Positions 16,322-23,462 of a DNA stretch of 25,164 bases are shown piece after piece. Source of the DNA: Nitrospinae bacterium RIFCSPLOWO2_12_FULL_45_22 (GTDB taxonomy: Bacteria; 2-12-FULL-45-22). How positions within the stretch are numbered: position 1 is the first letter of the stretch; the number at the start of each line of letters is the position of its first letter. The notes under the pieces were generated by a model, which made no database searches, was not told the origin of the DNA, and saw nothing but the letters and a program-made list of their open reading frames with translations. The stretch lies in NCBI GenBank assembly GCA_001803565.1, contig MHDQ01000251.1, positions 1 through 25,164 on the forward strand. Reading direction: 5' to 3'. Position numbers and translations under genes: made by a program.

Positions 16322-16419
16322 CACAAATGGCACGAATGGCACAAATACTTTAGCTTACTATCTCTTTATATTAGATCCTTTCTTCATTTGTGCCATTAGT
16401 CTATTCGTGTAATTCGTGT
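16322..16419. repeat. Nonamer-phased inverted repeat
   Basis: The left arm is three 9-base units (CACAAATGG, CACGAATGG, CACAAATAC). The right arm carries the inverted counterparts. AATGGCACAAAT (16336-16347) and ATTTGTGCCATT (16386-16397) are perfect inverted copies of 12 bases with 38 bases between. Elements with this CACGAATGG flavour are a recurrent intergenic type in many environmental bacteria. Confidence 0.6.
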
Positions 16420-16480: not shown

Positions 16481-16516
16481 TTGTGATATCTTGAGGTCAC
16501 AAATTGGTACCTCAAG
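16481..16516. promoter_or_regulatory. Overlapping palindromes upstream of the ORF6N gene, operator candidate
   Basis: CTTGAGGT (16490-16497) and ACCTCAAG (16509-16516) form a perfect 8-base inverted repeat with an 11-base spacer. TTGTGA (16481-16486) and TCACAA (16497-16502) form a second one overlapping it. The first ends 12 bases before the ATG and just before the GGAGG ribosome site, a position suited to autoregulation by the ORF6N protein or to control of initiation by RNA folding. Confidence 0.5.
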
Positions 16517-16528
16517 TTTGGAGGATCA

Positions 16529-17038
16529 ATGAAAGCACTTGTCCCTGTAGAATTGATTGAAAGAAAACTCCTGCTGATCCGAGGCAAAAAGGTTATGCTA
16601 GATGCAGACCTTGCTGGGCTTTACGGTGTGGAGGTGAAACAGCTAAAAAGGCAGGTCAGACGAAATATAGGACGTTTTCCAGCAGATTTCATGATCCAAT
16701 TATCAAAAGAAGAATATGAATCTTTAAGGCGCCATTTTGGCGCCTTAAAAAGAGGCGAGCATTCCAAATACATGCCCTATGCCTTTACCGAGCAAGGGGT
16801 CGCTATGCTTTCCTGTGTTTTGAACAGTGAAAGGGCCGTAAAGGTAAACATAGAGATTATGCGGGCATTTGTCAGACTCAGACAGATGCTTGCCTCAAAT
16901 GCCGAACTGGCGTGTAAACTCGACGCTCTTGAAAAGAAATACGATATGCAGTTCAAAGTCGTCTTTGACGCAATCCGGCAATTGATGACTCCGCCGGAGA
17001 CGAAGAAAAAGAAAATTCGGAGGGAAGAAGAAAAATGA
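16529..17038 (+). CDS. ORF6N-domain protein
   Basis: 169 residues, ATG preceded by TTTGGAGGATCA. The ORF6N domain covers about 5-115: [46 protein letters not shown], and [38 protein letters not shown] short coiled, highly charged tail follows (about 130-169, ending in a Lys/Glu/Arg run). The domain was first described in phage proteins next to KilA-N and antirepressor-type domains and is thought to bind DNA. In bacterial chromosomes such genes commonly sit inside type I restriction loci, as here, 26 bases before hsdS. It is the first gene of the island operon. A perfect intragenic palindrome lies in its middle. Confidence 0.88.
16723..16749. repeat. Perfect intragenic palindrome in the ORF6N gene
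   Basis: TTTAAGGCGCC and GGCGCCTTAAA are perfect 11-base arms around ATTTT. They encode part of the [11 protein letters not shown] segment. The whole is 27 bases, the same as the promoter palindrome at 16490-16516, with 16 of 27 positions identical and the three arm differences outside the centre compensated on both sides. Confidence 0.8.
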
Positions 17039-17064: not shown

Positions 17065-17784
17065 ATGGCTTTTAAAGTTAATGAACTTACATCAGGAAGG
17101 TTTAACCTTCCATCAGAATGGAGTATAGTCAAAGTTCGAGACGTAGCAAAAATCAATGGGTCAAGCATACAAAGAAACTATAATCATGAATGGATTGAAT
17201 ATATTGATATCGCATCCGTTGAAAAAGGAACTATCAAATCGCTTCAAGTGTTACCATTAAAAGAAGCCCCAAGTCGAGCCAGGAGAATTGTCCAAGATAA
17301 TGACATATTAATTTCTTCTGTTAGGCCAAATCTTGAACATTACGTTTTCATTAAGAAGGCTAAACCAAATACAGTCGCGTCAACTGGGTTTGCTGTTATA
17401 ACTCCAAAAAATGTACAACCTCGTTTTTTGTATTACTATTTAACAACAAAACCATTCACAAATTATTTGACGATAATTGCAGAAAGCCATACATCTGCAT
17501 ATCCATCATTTAATCCTGATGTAATTGAAAATTCTGAATTAATCTTACCAAGTGAAGTAGAACAAAAAGCCATTGCACACATCCTCGGCGATTTGGATGA
17601 TAAGATTGAACTGAACAGAAAAATAAACGAGACCCTGGAGGCTATGGCAAGAGCAATATTCAAATCATGGTTTGTTGATTTTGATCCCATCCCTGGCCTC
17701 GGCCCGCATAAAGAATGGCAGGACTCACCCCTTGGGAAGATCCCCAAAGGGGTGGAGGGTGGGTTCGCTCGGAGAACTATGTGA
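17065..17784 (+). CDS. hsdS: Type I restriction specificity subunit, N-terminal half (frameshifted)
   Basis: 239 residues. Residues 1-170 form the first target-recognition domain (SEWSIVKVRDVAKING through YPSFNPDVIENSELILPSEVEQKAIAHIL), followed by the first conserved helix region (LDDKIELNRKINETLEAMARAIFKSWFVDFDPI). The true sequence fits HsdS up to SPLGKIPKG; after that the frame gives VEGGFARRTM and stops. The second half continues in the +1 frame. One G too many in the GGGG run at 17749-17752 explains the break. The N-terminal half alone resembles the truncated HsdS proteins that in some systems dimerise, so residual function is possible, but no methylase gene is nearby. Confidence 0.85.
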   Translation: MAFKVNELTSGRFNLPSEWSIVKVRDVAKINGSSIQRNYNHEWIEYIDIASVEKGTIKSLQVLPLKEAPSRARRIVQDNDILISSVRPNLEHYVFIKKAKPNTVASTGFAVITPKNVQPRFLYYYLTTKPFTNYLTIIAESHTSAYPSFNPDVIENSELILPSEVEQKAIAHILGDLDDKIELNRKINETLEAMARAIFKSWFVDFDPIPGLGPHKEWQDSPLGKIPKGVEGGFARRTM

Positions 17785-18325
17785 AATTGTTATGGGTCAA
17801 TCGCCACCTGGTGAAACATATAATGAGATGGGCGAAGGGCTACCTTTCTATCAAGGAATTCGTGACTTTGGTTTTCGCTTTCCTTCAAGGCGTGTTTATT
17901 GTAATGCTCCAACCAGATTAGCTAACGAGGGCGATGTGCTTCTGAGTGTTCGTGCACCGGTAGGAAGTCTAAACATTTCAAGCGAAAAATGTGCAATAGG
18001 TCGAGGTGTCGCCTCATTAAGAATAAACGGACAGCACTACGGATTCTTGTATTATCTTATGAAAGAAACCCAATGGGGATGGGAGAAATATGAGGCTGAA
18101 GGCACGGTTTTTGGCTCAGCTACTAAGAAAGACGTTCAAAATTTCTCTACTATCCTTCCACCCACACAGACTATTTCTCGTTTCAACGAAGCGGTTTTTT
18201 CAATAGACCAAATGATCAGTAACAATGAAATACAATCCCGTACCCTTGCTGCTATCCGTGATGCATTACTGCCGAAGCTATTGTCAGGGGAGATAAGGGT
18301 GAAGGATACGGAGAAGTCGCTATGA
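17672..18325 (+). CDS. hsdS: Type I restriction specificity subunit, C-terminal half (out of frame)
   Basis: Homology begins near 17735, reading SPKGWRVGSLGELCEIVMGQSPPGETYN, the classic start of a second target-recognition domain. GDVLLSVRAPVGSLNI, then ISRFNEAVFSIDQMI and the final conserved helix (QSRTLAAIRDALLPKLLSGEIRV) follow. The frame is open from a TTG at 17672, but those first residues are out-of-frame reading of the N-terminal half and there is no ribosome site. Removing one G from 17749-17752 would join both halves into one HsdS of about 420 residues, a normal length. It ends with a TGA that overlaps the hamA ATG by four bases (ATGA). Confidence 0.82.
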   Translation: MLILIPSLASARIKNGRTHPLGRSPKGWRVGSLGELCEIVMGQSPPGETYNEMGEGLPFYQGIRDFGFRFPSRRVYCNAPTRLANEGDVLLSVRAPVGSLNISSEKCAIGRGVASLRINGQHYGFLYYLMKETQWGWEKYEAEGTVFGSATKKDVQNFSTILPPTQTISRFNEAVFSIDQMISNNEIQSRTLAAIRDALLPKLLSGEIRVKDTEKSL

Positions 18326-19101
18326 GTATTCTGAGTTATTTCGATCATGTCAATAATGGTTGTTTTATTCTTAAATTGCAACCAAAAGAAAGGGATGCGT
18401 TTTTATCGAAACTCCCCAACAAGTATAGAAAGTGCTATATAACAGATCAAAAAATAGAGGAATTACTTTCAAGGCATAACGGAAATATTTCTGCCAAGAA
18501 AATTATCCAAAGCAAAATTCCAGACCCAGGTAGTGTAATGGCTGGAGACTTCGGGGAAATTACAGCGTATTTCATACTTAAAGGAAAATACCTTCCAATA
18601 AAGTTGTTCGGACCTAAGAAATGGCGATGGAAGAATGATAGAAATAAGGCGCTTCTGTTCACAGATGTAATAATGTTTGATAGAAATGATACACCCTCCG
18701 AAAAGGATTTAGTTGTGTTAGCTGAAGTAAAGACAAAATCAACGAAGAGAACTAAGAACCCAATTCAACAGGCAATAGAAGGAGTTCAAAAGGACTATGT
18801 TTCACGATTTTCTCGCACTTTAATCTGGTTAAAGGATATATACACAAGCGTCGCCCCAAATGCCGCAAGAATTGAATATCTCGACAGATTCATTAATTCT
18901 CAAGAGGATAAATACGGGAAATACACAAAGCATTTTAAAGCAGTTGCTATTATAGACAGTTCATTTCTTGATAATGATTTAGAAGAAAATATCGAAGACC
19001 TTGAAATAGAAGATGATTTTGAGGTTATCGTGATCTCTATAGATGACCTAAAAACGGCATATGAATCCACTTATAAGACGATGCTACAAACATATGAATA
19101 G
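18322..19101 (+). CDS. hamA: Hachiman-like HamA nuclease (DUF1837)
   Basis: 259 residues, start overlapping the hsdS stop as ATGA. The nuclease-like core shows GDFGEI with E79, TDVIMF with D115 and VLAEVKTKS with E135 and K137, the E-D-ExK arrangement of PD-(D/E)xK enzymes. The C-terminal region is acidic (about 210-245). It is followed nine bases later by a large superfamily 2 helicase. A DUF1837 nuclease plus helicase pair is the definition of the Hachiman anti-phage system, in which HamB holds HamA in check until DNA damage or invading DNA is sensed and HamA then degrades DNA. The family call rests on motifs and pairing, not on a search. Confidence 0.82.
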   Translation: MSILSYFDHVNNGCFILKLQPKERDAFLSKLPNKYRKCYITDQKIEELLSRHNGNISAKKIIQSKIPDPGSVMAGDFGEITAYFILKGKYLPIKLFGPKKWRWKNDRNKALLFTDVIMFDRNDTPSEKDLVVLAEVKTKSTKRTKNPIQQAIEGVQKDYVSRFSRTLIWLKDIYTSVAPNAARIEYLDRFINSQEDKYGKYTKHFKAVAIIDSSFLDNDLEENIEDLEIEDDFEVIVISIDDLKTAYESTYKTMLQTYE

Positions 19102-19110
19102 GGTCAGCAT

Positions 19111-22104
19111 ATGAGAAAAAACTTAAAGCTGTGGATAGCTCAATCTGAATCCTGGCACACTTTTGTTGATTTTAGATTGCCGGAAAAGGCTATCGCAAAA
19201 TATCCATTCTTGGAACGTACAGATGATTTCTACATTGCCCTCTTTGGTAAACTTTTTGACCTTCTAAATGATCCAAAATTTGAAGAAAAGAAAGATGACC
19301 TTCTTGCTATAGGGAAAGGCTTGGAAATTTATTCTCTTAAAAGTACAAGAAATAAGTTTAGAGGAGTCAATTATTCCGAGAATATCCTGTATGCTGCAAG
19401 CCTTTACTATCTGGCAGACTATTCTGCATCAGCATGGCTCTTGGCAAACCTTTTCTCTGCAAATCAATATGGTTCAGATGCCGATAAATTCATTTCATGT
19501 TTCTTGAGCCGCAACATTCAGGTAGATAATGCTTACGTCTCACAACTTCGCAAATATTTGCACAGAGGAGACATAACTATTTTAGATGAAATGCGGGAGA
19601 CGTTTTCTCAAAGAACTAAAGACGCTCTCAAGGACTCACCTCATGAATATACGTTTTACAAATTAGCATCTTGTCTAATCGATCGCTTCTATACGAATAA
19701 TATTTGGATTGATTTATTAGGGCAAAATCACTATGAACCACAAGTATGGAAGAAATATGTTGAAGCAAATCTAAAGCGGAAGCCGCCAGTTTGGGATTTC
19801 TTTCCTTCGCAGAAGGAGGCCATAAACAGAGGAATACTAAAAGAAAATAAATCTTTTTCTTTTCAGATGCCTACCAGTGCTGGCAAAACTGCTCTTTGCG
19901 AGTTAATCATTTATAATGAAAAGAGAATGAATCCAGATGCAAAAATATTATTCCTTGCTCCTTTTCGCGCTCTGGCATCGGAATTGAAATCTGGCTTTAG
20001 TAAAAAGATTGCTCAGTTAGGAATTAAGTCAAAAACTATTTACGGGGGCAATATAGTTACTCAGGATGAAAAAAAAGCCATACAAAAAGTAGACCTTCTA
20101 ATCTCAACCCCAGAAAAATTTATGGCAGTGGAAAGTTTTATACCTGACATTTACGAGTTGTTTCAGGTAATCATCTGTGACGAAGGACATCTACTTGACA
20201 ACGAGCAAAGGGGTTTAAATTATGAGATCTTACTCTCTAAGTTTAGAAGTCCATCAGTAGGCGAAAAGAAATTCATATTTTTATCCGCCATAATTCCCAA
20301 TATAGAAGAAATAAACACTTGGCTGGGTGGGGATCAAACTTCCTTAGTAAAGTCAGAATATAGGCCAACAGAGCTGAACTTTGCCTTCCTCAAACAAGGA
20401 AATGATAAAACCTATTATTTGGATGTCAATCCCACAAAAGGAAGACCTGAGAATTATCAAATATCTAAATTTTTGTCTAAAATAGATTTCCAATACATTA
20501 ATCCGGCGACAAATCGGAAAAAGACATATCCTTTTAGTAGCATCAAAGCAAGAGCAGTTGCTTCTGCCCTAAAAGCTGTGCCGTCGGGGACAGTTGCACT
20601 ATTTGCCCCTCAAAAAGGTCAAGGGGGCGTGTCCGGATTGGCAGAAGAAGTCATTAAGCAGGTTGATAAATTGTCATTGCCTAATCCTGCAAATTACTCG
20701 TCAAGCTCGGTAGCATTACTAAAAGAGTACTGTGAAAAGCTTTTTGGAAAAGAATATCTGCTCACTAGGCTGATTGATTATGGCGCTGTATTTCATCATG
20801 GGGATCTGCCACAGGATGTTCACGAAGCAATAGAGGATTCACTGCGCGATGGTAGTGTAAGACTTATTATCTGCACAAATACCTTAGCTGAAGGAGTTAA
20901 TCTGCCAATAAGAACGATAGTTGTCCATTCAGCTAAAAGATTTGATTATGAGTCGAAAAGATTAGTGGACATGGAAATAAGAGATTTAAAAAACATTACA
21001 GGCAGAGCTGGTAGAGCTGGTAAAGAAACTAAGGGATTCATAATAATTACAAATCCAACAGATTTCAATACAGCTAAGAAGGTAATAAAAGATGAGGGCG
21101 GCAACAATGTTACAGGATTTTTATACAAAATAGTCCATGCTGTGGCAAAGTTTGTTCAGGACAAAAGGCTGACCTTATCAAATGACATTTTAGATGAACA
21201 GAATGAGCGGTTTAAACAATTGATTGATTCAATAGATATCTCCCTAATTAGTTTAATGGCTGAGGAAATCGAGACCGAGAAACTTAGAGAGCATATCAAC
21301 ACTCTAGTAGAGCAAACATTTGCCTTTCGGCAGGCAAATGTTGATGAAAAAAAGGCTTTGCGGGACATATTCAACCTTCGAGGTGATGTCCTAAGGCCAT
21401 ATGTAGAATCAAAGGAATATCGAACCATCAAAAAGAGTGGGGCATCAGTAAGACTATATAAGAGCGTTCTTGATTCGATAGACTTAGAGGATGAATTATG
21501 GCGAGCAACCAACGACCCAGTATCAGAAACATGGTTACAGGTGATAAAAGACAATGTTCTTGCGCTTCCTCAGCCAAAATTTAGCATAGAGGAATTCAAC
21601 AAATATAATGGAACTAATCTCTCGTCCGACGATATTATTAAGATAATTAAACTCTGGATTAAAGGTCATGCATATAAGGATATCGCGGACAAATCACAAA
21701 TAGAAGTTGATACAATTCTTAAGATATTTTCTTCATTAATTGGGTTCCATCTGCAAAGCATCATCTCAAGCATTATTAGAATAGCCGACAGCAAATTATT
21801 AGAAAAGGACAAAAATCTGTCGGAAACTTTGTCATATTGGCCACAATATTTGCTTTACGGCTTAAAAAATAGACTGGAATTAGACCTCGTAGAACTTGGA
21901 TTCACCAATAGAATCGGCATTATGGCGCTGAGCGAGGCGATCAAAGACGAAGGATTTACCTATGCCGAACTCAAAAAGCTAAGAGACTACATAAAGAGAA
22001 ATAGTGATCATCTTTTTGAGAGAATCGGTTCTTCGATACCTAAAATATCTTATGAAAAACTAAAGGAAACCGTCGATTATTTAAATCGGAAGAATATTCA
22101 TTGA
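19111..22104 (+). CDS. hamB: Hachiman-like HamB superfamily 2 helicase
   Basis: 997 residues. An N-terminal helical region without helicase motifs covers about 1-225. The helicase core follows: a Q-motif-like FFPSQKEAI (230-238), Walker A PTSAGKT (254-260), APFRALA (283-289), STPEK (332-336), the DEGH box (357-360), SAI (392-394, in place of SAT), HHGDLP (562-567), ICTNTLAEGVNLP (587-599) and GRAGRAG (631-637). This is a Ski2/Hel308-like arrangement. A long C-terminal region (about 680-997) is probably helical and holds the partner- or DNA-sensing parts. ATP-dependent DNA translocation is expected. All motifs are intact. It is directly downstream of hamA and its stop touches fic. Confidence 0.87.
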   Translation: MRKNLKLWIAQSESWHTFVDFRLPEKAIAKYPFLERTDDFYIALFGKLFDLLNDPKFEEKKDDLLAIGKGLEIYSLKSTRNKFRGVNYSENILYAASLYYLADYSASAWLLANLFSANQYGSDADKFISCFLSRNIQVDNAYVSQLRKYLHRGDITILDEMRETFSQRTKDALKDSPHEYTFYKLASCLIDRFYTNNIWIDLLGQNHYEPQVWKKYVEANLKRKPPVWDFFPSQKEAINRGILKENKSFSFQMPTSAGKTALCELIIYNEKRMNPDAKILFLAPFRALASELKSGFSKKIAQLGIKSKTIYGGNIVTQDEKKAIQKVDLLISTPEKFMAVESFIPDIYELFQVIICDEGHLLDNEQRGLNYEILLSKFRSPSVGEKKFIFLSAIIPNIEEINTWLGGDQTSLVKSEYRPTELNFAFLKQGNDKTYYLDVNPTKGRPENYQISKFLSKIDFQYINPATNRKKTYPFSSIKARAVASALKAVPSGTVALFAPQKGQGGVSGLAEEVIKQVDKLSLPNPANYSSSSVALLKEYCEKLFGKEYLLTRLIDYGAVFHHGDLPQDVHEAIEDSLRDGSVRLIICTNTLAEGVNLPIRTIVVHSAKRFDYESKRLVDMEIRDLKNITGRAGRAGKETKGFIIITNPTDFNTAKKVIKDEGGNNVTGFLYKIVHAVAKFVQDKRLTLSNDILDEQNERFKQLIDSIDISLISLMAEEIETEKLREHINTLVEQTFAFRQANVDEKKALRDIFNLRGDVLRPYVESKEYRTIKKSGASVRLYKSVLDSIDLEDELWRATNDPVSETWLQVIKDNVLALPQPKFSIEEFNKYNGTNLSSDDIIKIIKLWIKGHAYKDIADKSQIEVDTILKIFSSLIGFHLQSIISSIIRIADSKLLEKDKNLSETLSYWPQYLLYGLKNRLELDLVELGFTNRIGIMALSEAIKDEGFTYAELKKLRDYIKRNSDHLFERIGSSIPKISYEKLKETVDYLNRKNIH

Positions 22105-22106
22105 AA

Positions 22107-22757
22107 ATGAAAAACTCTTATCGCTACGATACATCCTCTCTCCCCGAAGCCCAGTTTGAGCCGGGCTCACATGGCCGCGTCCTCAAGAACAAGCTCGGCA
22201 TAAAGAGCAAAAAGGACATGGACGAGGTTGAATCGGTTGCCCTTAAAACCGCTATAGATAATCTTCTCGGAATATACGATGAGCACCACTGTTTTACGGC
22301 AGCGGACATTAGAACAATGCATAAAGTCTGGCTTGGTGAAATTTATGAGTGGGCAGGTGAATACAGGCAGGTTAATGTGAGCAAAGGGGATTTTCCTTTT
22401 GCTGCTGCAAAGCAGATTCCATTTTTAATGGCAGAATTTGAAAAAGGTCATCTCCACAAGCATACACCCTGCAATTTCAAATCGTTAGAGCGAGTTATTC
22501 AGGCGCTGGCAGAGGTTCATGTTGAACTTGTCCTTATTCATCCATTCCGTGAAGGCAATGGCAGGGTTGCAAGAATACTCTCGACCATTATGGCATTTCA
22601 GGCAGGCTTGCCGATGCTGAACTTTAAAGATATTACACACAGAAAAAAGAAGGAGTATTTTACCGCAATCAACAGAGGCTTGAGCAGGGACTATAAACCA
22701 ATGGAAATACTTTTTGAGAAAATCATTGAGAGGTCTATCAAATCTAAGTCCGTTTAG
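22107..22757 (+). CDS. fic: Fic-domain AMP-transferase-like protein (toxin type)
   Basis: 216 residues from the ATG at 22107; a TTG at 22101 overlapping the hamB stop (TTGA) is an alternative. The core motif HPFREGNGRVAR (about 145-156) is complete, with catalytic His, the acidic residue binding Mg2+ and both Arg. IYEWAGEYRQVNVSKGDFPF (about 79-98) is the target-docking flap region of the cell-filamentation/Doc-like branch. No inhibitory S/T-xxx-E-G/N motif occurs in the protein itself, so inhibition must come from a separate antitoxin; the short ORF on the other strand at its 3' end is a candidate. Fic enzymes usually transfer AMP to a Ser/Thr/Tyr hydroxyl; the target is unknown. Confidence 0.9.
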   Translation: MKNSYRYDTSSLPEAQFEPGSHGRVLKNKLGIKSKKDMDEVESVALKTAIDNLLGIYDEHHCFTAADIRTMHKVWLGEIYEWAGEYRQVNVSKGDFPFAAAKQIPFLMAEFEKGHLHKHTPCNFKSLERVIQALAEVHVELVLIHPFREGNGRVARILSTIMAFQAGLPMLNFKDITHRKKKEYFTAINRGLSRDYKPMEILFEKIIERSIKSKSV

Positions 22758-22905
22758 ATTTAAGGTTCTTTTTGAGGAGTTGAGAGGGCGTTATACGAAT
22801 ACCTTCAACTGCAGAAGAGGTTATAACATTTGTAACTAATGAAGCCTCGTATTTTTTAGAGTCTTTCAAATACGGGTTTGTTTCTTTCAATGACTTCTTT
22901 TTCAT
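22744..22905 (-). CDS. Candidate Fic antitoxin, 53 residues, convergent with fic
   Basis: ATG at 22905, TAG at 22746-22744. The protein is basic and probably helical. Residues 30-35 read S-S-A-V-E-G, an exact match to the S/T-xxx-E-G/N motif by which Fic inhibitors place a Glu against the second Arg of the Fic active site. Nothing else in this protein is recognisable; NPYLKD near the N terminus looks conserved in style. It overlaps the end of fic by 14 bases, tail to tail, which differs from the usual upstream antitoxin gene. There is no clear ribosome site, but a promoter match ends six bases before the ATG. Coding is inferred from motif plus position; the motif is short and could be chance. 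Confidence 0.6.
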   Translation of the reverse strand: MKKKSLKETNPYLKDSKKYEASLVTNVITSSAVEGIRITPSQLLKKNLKSKRT

Positions 22906-22911
22906 GTTTTT

Positions 22912-22940
22912 ATGATACTAAAACAAAAAGAAAAAATCAA
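22912..22940 (-). promoter_or_regulatory. Promoter candidate for the short anti-Fic ORF
   Basis: On the minus strand TTGATT and TATCAT are exactly 17 bases apart. Only six bases separate TATCAT from the ATG, so the message would begin at or next to the start codon, a leaderless arrangement. That agrees with the absence of a ribosome site. Confidence 0.45.
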
Positions 22941-22948
22941 AGAAAAAA

Positions 22949-22997
22949 CTGGATTCTTGCTGGAATCCCGCACACTGATGCGGGGCAGGAATGACAG
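22949..22997. repeat. REP-like palindromic element
   Basis: CCCGCA (22967-22972) and TGCGGG (22979-22984) make a perfect 6-base-pair stem with a 6-base loop, flanked by CTGGATTC on one side and GAATGACAG on the other. This outline (TGGATTCCCGC, then GCGGGAATGACA) is a common dispersed palindromic repeat type. It separates the anti-Fic promoter from the hsdR remnant. Confidence 0.6.
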
Positions 22998-23012
22998 CTA
23001 ATCAATGATAAA

Positions 23013-23462
23013 ATGAACAGAAACAATATAACCGAATCAGAAATAGAACAAGCAACCATTGAGTGGTTCAAGGAACTGAGATATTCCGTTCTTTTCGGCC
23101 CTGACATTTCGCCGGGTAGGGGCGAGGTGATCTCCCCTTTACAAGAGCGGGCAAGTTACAGCGATGTTATCCTTGAAAACAGACTCCATTCTGCACTGAT
23201 CAAAATCAATCCTGACATTCCTGGGGAAGCAATAGAAGATGCCTACCGGAAATTAACAAGAGCGATCCATGAATCGCCCCTACTGGCTGCAAACAATCAC
23301 CGGTTCCACAAAATGCTTACCGAGGGGATTGATGTTGAATACCAGGATGAAACCGGCAGGATTATTGGAGATAAAGTGTGGCTGGTAGACTTTGATAATC
23401 CTGATAACAATAGCAAACTATCGGCTCACCCCCATATACATCCAAGCCAATTTACCCATTAG
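23013..23462 (+). pseudogene. hsdR: Type I restriction endonuclease HsdR, N-terminal remnant
   Basis: 149 residues against about 1000 for a full HsdR. The sequence is typical of the HsdR N terminus (ITESEIEQATIEWFKELRY, then QERASYSDVIL, HKMLTEGIDVEYQDETGRIIGDKVWLVDFDNPDNN). After residue 133 or so the similarity ends and an unrelated SKLSAHPHIHPSQFTH tail runs to a stop. The Asp in WLVDF is the likely first catalytic residue; the ExK half of the nuclease site and all helicase motifs are gone. The rest of the gene is not present downstream, where pabB begins 25 bases later. This is the right-hand edge of the island and probably a deletion scar. Confidence 0.85.

Follow-up and report, generated by a model that had tools for sequence, protein, structure and literature searches.

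Intragenic operators are represented by lac O2 in lacZ and by the internal gal operator in galE, and the controller proteins of restriction-modification systems autoregulate. The former share with the element described here the placement of an operator in coding DNA, and the latter share autoregulation in restriction operons; however, the lac and gal operators lie inside genes other than that of the regulator, and are not conserved across a regulator family.

BstA of the Salmonella prophage BTP1 is accompanied by aba, a 63 bp self-immunity element which has direct end repeats and overlaps the start codon (PMC8585504). The likeness to the present case is in a KilA-N-like DNA-binding protein with a DNA-based cognate element overlapping its own coding sequence, and in variants that have distinct elements; the description of aba, however, includes neither a palindrome nor a helix-site code nor a fixed place within a domain (PMC8585504). 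The lambda O protein also has its binding sites inside its own coding sequence, but there several iterons form the replication origin of one phage group, rather than one 27-bp palindrome at a fixed codon in three families (PMC6022878). Islands of Type I restriction genes do carry repressors, as shown by RptR, a small autoregulator which is encoded at the head of a Type I restriction-modification defence island and acts as a dimer on palindromic sites; it differs in belonging to another, all-helical family and in using TAGCTA promoter repeats, with none described in coding sequence (PMC12255303).

The DNA analysed here (hereafter the window) is a stretch of 25,164 nt from Nitrospinae bacterium RIFCSPLOWO2_12_FULL_45_22 (GCA_001803565.1, contig MHDQ01000251.1, positions 1-25,164). 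Its gene at 16529..17038 on the plus strand encodes a protein of 169 aa, which matches the ORF6N profile PF10543 with 109.9 bits (E 7.6e-32; cut-off 27.8) over profile positions 2-85 of 86, and is the sole ORF6N gene found in its genome. The protein also matches the PADLOC profile PDC-S05, a candidate defence protein, with an E value of 1.1e-54. Compared with BstA and aba, the matches of the window protein are ORF6N and PDC-S05, its palindrome is at codons 65-74, and no CCCGCC repeat pair was seen upstream or in the first codons. For the families ORF6N, KilA-N and Bro-N (PF10543, PF04383 and PF02498), no description of an in-gene palindrome or of a recognition code was found in the open-access literature; the window protein is an ORF6N member, and the fold is like that of DNA-binding winged helices, including MBP1/PCG2.

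Two overlapping ORFs (17065-17784 and 17672-18325) resembling Type I restriction specificity (HsdS) genes occupy 17065..18325 on the plus strand. They start 26 bp past the ORF6N gene and are its putative downstream operon members. This HsdS, split over two ORFs, is possibly frameshifted, and no hsdM was seen within the window. The whole region 3' of the ORF6N gene, 17065-23462, is a defence island of HsdS, Hachiman HamA/HamB, Fic (PDC-S04) and an N-terminal HsdR fragment. Upstream of the gene, the non-coding stretch 16332-16400 carries an inverted repeat, ACGAATGGCACAAAT / ATTTGTGCCATTAGT, with a spacer of 39 nt.

Palindromes in and before the ORF6N gene

The sequence-only reading had described two 27-base palindromes, and both are present, neither being assigned to a strand: CTTGAGGTCACAAATTGGTACCTCAAG at 16490-16516, upstream of the gene, and TTTAAGGCGCCATTTTGGCGCCTTAAA at 16723-16749, within it. 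The copies share 16/27 bases on direct string comparison, and the exchanges described as compensated, at 1/27 (C-G/T-A), 4/24 (G-C/A-T) and 8/20 (T-A/C-G), do keep pairing in both. The peptides read from them, LRSQIGTS in the upstream copy and LRRHFGAL in the gene, are likewise correct, and LRSQ, named there as the commoner form, is the majority form among ORF6N proteins.

The in-gene palindrome, with 12 paired positions flanking a 3-nt centre, is where the encoded protein is predicted to bind. It is located between the codons of the predicted HTH recognition helix (residues 36-45, 16634..16663, plus strand) and those of the final strand in the winged-helix-like domain. Its score of 11 exceeds everything obtained in 400 synonymous-codon shuffles of the same segment (mean 3.9, maximum 8; row L001). 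The upstream palindrome, a hybrid of two half-sites, pairs at 11/13 positions, the mismatches being 9/19 and 10/18. It ends 12 nt before the ATG, directly 5' of a GGAGG ribosome-binding site which is read directly from the sequence at 16520..16524 on the plus strand, 4 nt 3' of the palindrome; it is a probable ORF6N-type operator adjoining this ribosome-binding site. Each palindrome is unique in the 3.67 Mb genome, save one 3-mismatch match to the upstream motif, and the in-gene site is unique even on allowing up to 3 mismatches. On the minus strand, 16721-16751 is scored as resembling a terminator, a stem with a T-rich stretch after it, which is probably a by-product of the symmetry.

Conservation of the site and covariation with the recognition helix

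Homologous loci (66) were gathered from bacterial genomes by protein patterns leaving out the palindrome-coded residues, and the sample of ORF6N loci is what these search patterns fetched. A palindrome stands at the homologous place in almost all 66, and nearly every ORF6N gene examined has one of 25-29 bp at the same codons, with viral and paralogous copies in agreement. All 59 testable genomic homologues score above their synonymous-codon shuffles, and for 55 the level is 1/400 or better; these 59 genes have a mean score of 11.7, as compared to 4.3 for the shuffles and 4.0 for other stretches of the same genes. When the gene is scanned along its length, an excess over the shuffles appears at one codon only (residue 70 of the window protein, +7.0), the next best value being +0.4. 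A score of at least 7 is reached in 134/135 distinct ORF6N genes, a set in which some loci had been retrieved by means of the motif; for this reason the 59-gene sample is the cleaner one. The proposal that the in-gene segment is selected for DNA symmetry is borne out by the homologues, which beat their shuffles.

On a tree from which the palindrome residues were withheld, pairs 1-12 underwent 229 changes from one Watson-Crick pair to another vs 91 losses of pairing. The same kind of site is encoded by differing peptides (LRSQIVTS, LRFQIGTS, LRCQFGTS and LRRHFGTL), and other genes use a second reading frame (EVVANCDHL, ELITNCDNL). Since the frame in which the site is read differs between genes, two being in use, it is the DNA that is conserved and not the peptide; the shuffles and the second frame together rule out peptide conservation as the source of the symmetry. 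Loss of symmetry with the protein conserved, which the sequence-only reading had named as evidence against its view, was not seen, and the opposite was found.

Two apparent frame variants, L027 in frame 2, which would have been a third reading frame, and L162 in frame 1, were due to mis-chosen palindromes and were dropped. The idea that the palindrome encodes a DNA-contacting wing found no support: in the predicted structure the ORF6N segment is a helix end with a low-confidence loop, and in the KilA-N model it is a confident helix, 71-80, between the recognition helix and the wing. Two ORF6N genes (L111 and L189) each hold two tandem in-gene palindromes, from short in-frame duplications.

The structure model of the window protein places the predicted HTH at residues 25-45. 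The nearest structures among those solved are DNA-binding winged-helix domains, with middling matches at Z 4-7.5 (Ski/Dachshund, Z 7.5-6.5; partition, MerR-type and MBP1-type domains, Z 4-5). Residues 37, 38, 41 and 45 covary with the palindrome, as evident from the APC-corrected mutual information, which peaks in the helix: residue 41 with base 10 (z 15.7), 38 with base 10 (z 10.8), 37 with base 7 (z 7.3), 41 with base 9 (z 7.0) and 45 with base 11 (z 3.5). Elsewhere z exceeds 3 only in columns 75-81, which flank the palindrome, and weakly at residue 150 (z 4.4). Partial correlations taken by protein segment pick out residues 35-46, and also 75-87, again flanking the palindrome, and 121-150; the per-residue mutual information was relied on over these segment-wise values.

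The identity of residue 41 goes with that of base pair 10: Gln with A·T in 64/65 genes, Arg with C·G in 29/30, Glu with G·C in 27/28 and Lys with C·G in 8/9. Similarly, Arg45 goes with C·G (125/127), Asn45 with A (5/5) and Lys37 with G·C (67/69), and these pairings fit textbook side-chain/base contacts. Phylogenetically independent pairs for Gln41/A10 agree in 11.7/12 cases on average and never disagree (p 0.0005). The residue-41 code is right in 9/9 held-out genes, and the recognition code is valid in both reading frames, shifted-frame genes included. Across more than a hundred relatives, the site and the DNA-reading helix vary together. As helix residues predict the bases of the palindrome, the encoded protein most likely has its binding site there; recognition of the palindrome by this protein is strongly supported, the evidence being the covariation with helix residues 37, 38, 41 and 45. 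The centres of the half-sites are about 10 bp from each other, which would suit a dimer on one face of the DNA.

In KilA-N genes the palindrome is even-centred, built around GAATTC, and lies at residue 74, with an excess of +7.5 at that codon only; Bro-N genes have a weaker one at residue 67 (excess +2.3; 47/77 genes at p<=0.05). The covarying residues of KilA-N are 42, 43, 46 and 47, within the predicted helix 41-50 (Lys46-G in 13/13), with 6/6 independent pairs in agreement (p 0.03). Those of Bro-N are 50-55, in the region of the recognition helix (Arg51-G in 33/34, Arg55-G in 18/18), where the independent-pair counts are too small to reach significance. By such covariation, the in-gene palindrome is linked to the protein's own recognition helix clearly in KilA-N and more weakly in Bro-N. 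A KilA-N gene of E. coli has the palindrome too, and E. coli dinD has no significant in-gene palindrome. At another locus (L233, 1099-3179) a KilA-N gene overlaps the end of hsdS, so that KilA-N genes are also placed within Type I restriction operons.

Upstream sites and distribution of the motif

The upstream palindrome of the window attains 32 bits on a matrix built from in-gene palindromes, on which a score of 12 is reached by only 7/984 control windows. The two copies are versions of one motif, as had been suggested. The further suggestion, that the upstream copy is a second version of the protein segment, did not survive, as its LRSQIGTS likeness comes from sharing the DNA site; this reading arises because the site is a hybrid, with a left half of the LRSQ type and a right half of the GTS type. 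The left half, GGTCAC, has A at base 10, the form that Gln41-type proteins would read, and the right half, GGTACC, has C at base 10, the form that would be read by Arg41-type proteins, including that of the window. Such a hybrid could be bound by a heterodimer, be weakly bound, or allow a paralogue to cross-regulate the gene. Hybrids of this kind are found upstream in the near relatives L003 and L011, and L005, which encodes a Gln41 protein, has the same A/C hybrid. Relative to the start, the site is positioned as in the window in L003, L005, L009 and L011, and relatives have it anywhere from about -18 to -200. As a small correction to the name of promoter copy, the site abuts GGAGG, and no convincing sigma-70 promoter was called at it.

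A related site within about 350 bp upstream is present at 30/130 ORF6N genes vs 7/984 control windows, and almost never at KilA-N and Bro-N genes. The upstream sites match their own in-gene site at 19.9/27 positions and those of others at 18.2/27 (p 0.0002, with relatedness not removed). Their half-sites fit residue 41 of their own protein in 32/60 cases vs 24 expected (p 0.03); this match is only modest, and some upstream sites may therefore serve a paralogue. Upstream ORF6N-type half-sites unfit for the gene's own residue 41 were noted at L038, L040, L131, L009 and L117, where cross-regulation by a paralogue is possible.

Since about one ORF6N gene in four has an upstream copy, the pairing of operators is optional. 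Looping between the upstream and in-gene sites was rejected as a general function, because the in-gene site is near universal and a good upstream site is lacking at most ORF6N genes and at nearly all KilA-N and Bro-N genes. Of the autoregulatory operator pair put forward by the sequence-only reading, the autoregulatory operator is favoured, and the pair as an essential unit, with looping as its general function, is not. That reading had also taken a lack of the upstream palindrome in homologous loci as telling against it, and such a lack is what most loci display, those with a good site being the exceptions.

Of about 23 places at which a strict motif was found in 17 genomes, ~20 lie in an ORF6N gene or no more than about 300 bp 5' of one, the exceptions being one chance match in mutS and two intergenic places. 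When 148 genomes belonging to another phylum were searched from the DNA side first, 10/12 occurrences fell inside ORF6N genes, one just 3' of an ORF6N gene and one without ORF6N nearby; reversed-pattern controls gave zero matches. The motif in bacterial genomes is almost confined to ORF6N genes. In viral contigs (L070-L110), the exact motif GAGGTCRCAAWTTGYGACCTC occurs between genes of phages without ORF6N, in many cases followed by T-runs, and these intergenic matches look like terminators. A free-standing CTTGAGGTCACAATTTGTGACCTCAAG around position 1501 of L208, with no ORF6N gene found and close to a sequence reading VIPAKAGIQ, is possibly a remnant.

Proposed role and rival explanations

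The in-gene palindrome is, with good probability, the DNA-binding site of the encoded protein, read by a dimer and likely restraining transcription as an in-gene operator. Comparison of the sequences demonstrates that the DNA symmetry is conserved, that helix and site covary, and that the site is nearly exclusive to the cognate genes. Physical binding, dimerisation, and repression with its mechanism are what we infer from these observations. A dimer of the ORF6N winged-helix-like domain would read bases about 7-11 of each half-site through the four covarying helix residues, with the two half-sites about one DNA turn apart. On the in-gene site, about 200 bp past the start codon, this dimer would form a roadblock restraining the gene and the genes after it.

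As the site is in transcribed coding sequence, binding most likely restrains transcription, and as the best sites of the protein are at its own gene, autoregulation is the most likely consequence. Repression is a putative outcome, with activation, self-immunity or another consequence of binding as possible alternatives, and the role would likely be that of an autoregulatory operator built into the gene. Restriction genes follow the ORF6N gene in several relatives, and HsdS, Hachiman and Fic follow it in the window; because defence and restriction genes follow, an in-gene roadblock would also throttle the operon. The regulation would travel with the gene between promoters, restriction-modification operons, defence islands and phages, and some genes, that of the window included, have gained a further, related site, placed at the promoter or the ribosome-binding site.

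The same binding may serve another purpose. In a self-recognition element of the BstA/aba kind, the in-gene site would titrate or switch off the protein on replication of the gene, conferring immunity on the carrier. The PDC-S05 match beside Hachiman, HsdS and Fic genes, the cognate element that BstA, with its KilA-N-like domain, has in its own gene (PMC8585504), and the differing cognate sites among paralogues are all in its favour. We nevertheless consider it unlikely, since aba, which has direct CCCGCC end repeats and overlaps the start codon, is not described as a palindrome (PMC8585504), many ORF6N genes stand alone adjoining housekeeping genes, and the operator-like upstream copies point to transcriptional control. 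A replication or partition site in an initiator gene, after the manner of the lambda origin in gene O, is very improbable. Although the O protein does bind oriλ, a site internal to its gene (PMC6022878), and plasmid partition proteins are among the fold matches, the locus has a single in-gene palindrome and no iteron array as in an origin of the lambda-O type; moreover, most ORF6N genes studied are chromosomal, by restriction or housekeeping genes, and no replicon features were seen.

The sequence-only reading had also offered an RNA switch and a recombination site or cassette. The stem would fold as RNA, as needed for a switch, attenuator or processing site in the mRNA, and in KilA-N the sense-strand G-U mismatches outnumber A-C (26 vs 11), counts which alone would not reject such a hairpin. 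In ORF6N the relation is reversed, G-U being rarer than the A-C control (19 vs 40, pairs 1-12), which is not the pattern of RNA pairing, and it is with the recognition helix of a DNA-binding fold that the bases covary. For KilA-N, RNA pairing is excluded mainly because of this helix covariation and because the palindrome keeps its symmetry right through the middle (GAATTC), leaving no room for the loop of a hairpin. An RNA role thus retains a minimal probability. No more credible is a mobile or selfish palindromic repeat, akin to the Rickettsia palindromic element, or a recombination cassette that inserts into genes. The upstream copies, the occasional tandem in-gene copies (L111, L189) and the use of two reading frames would suit it; no evidence for a recombination site or cassette was found, however, and dispersed copies are wanting, the motif being absent elsewhere in the window's genome and almost absent outside ORF6N genes, and the site is fixed at one codon in all members and tracks the helix residues. 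Quasipalindrome-correction mutations are established, and replication slippage between the arms might preserve the symmetry of an old, functionless palindrome and would yield double changes; it predicts neither the covariation with a helix whose codons are about 60-90 nt distant nor the same motif upstream and the parallel KilA-N and Bro-N sites, and its likelihood is accordingly slight.

What the window displays is a single instance of a far wider phenomenon. Proteins of the ORF6N, KilA-N and Bro-N families occur widely in phages and in defence islands, with few known targets. Returning to the reading as an in-gene operator, a broader form of it, about as likely as not, is that these genes are self-addressed: the codons between recognition helix and wing would obligatorily double as the gene's own operator, gene and specificity would make up one mobile self-regulating or self-recognising unit, and new specificities would arise through coordinated change of helix and site in one reading frame. 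If this is true, the targets of thousands of such proteins would be readable from the gene itself, along with a residue-to-base code, so that their function would be directly testable, and a large natural set of orthogonal repressor/operator pairs would be at hand. An obligatory overlapping code, for a protein segment and an operator, would have been kept over very long evolutionary times, and there would be a simple reason for the movement of such regulators between operons.
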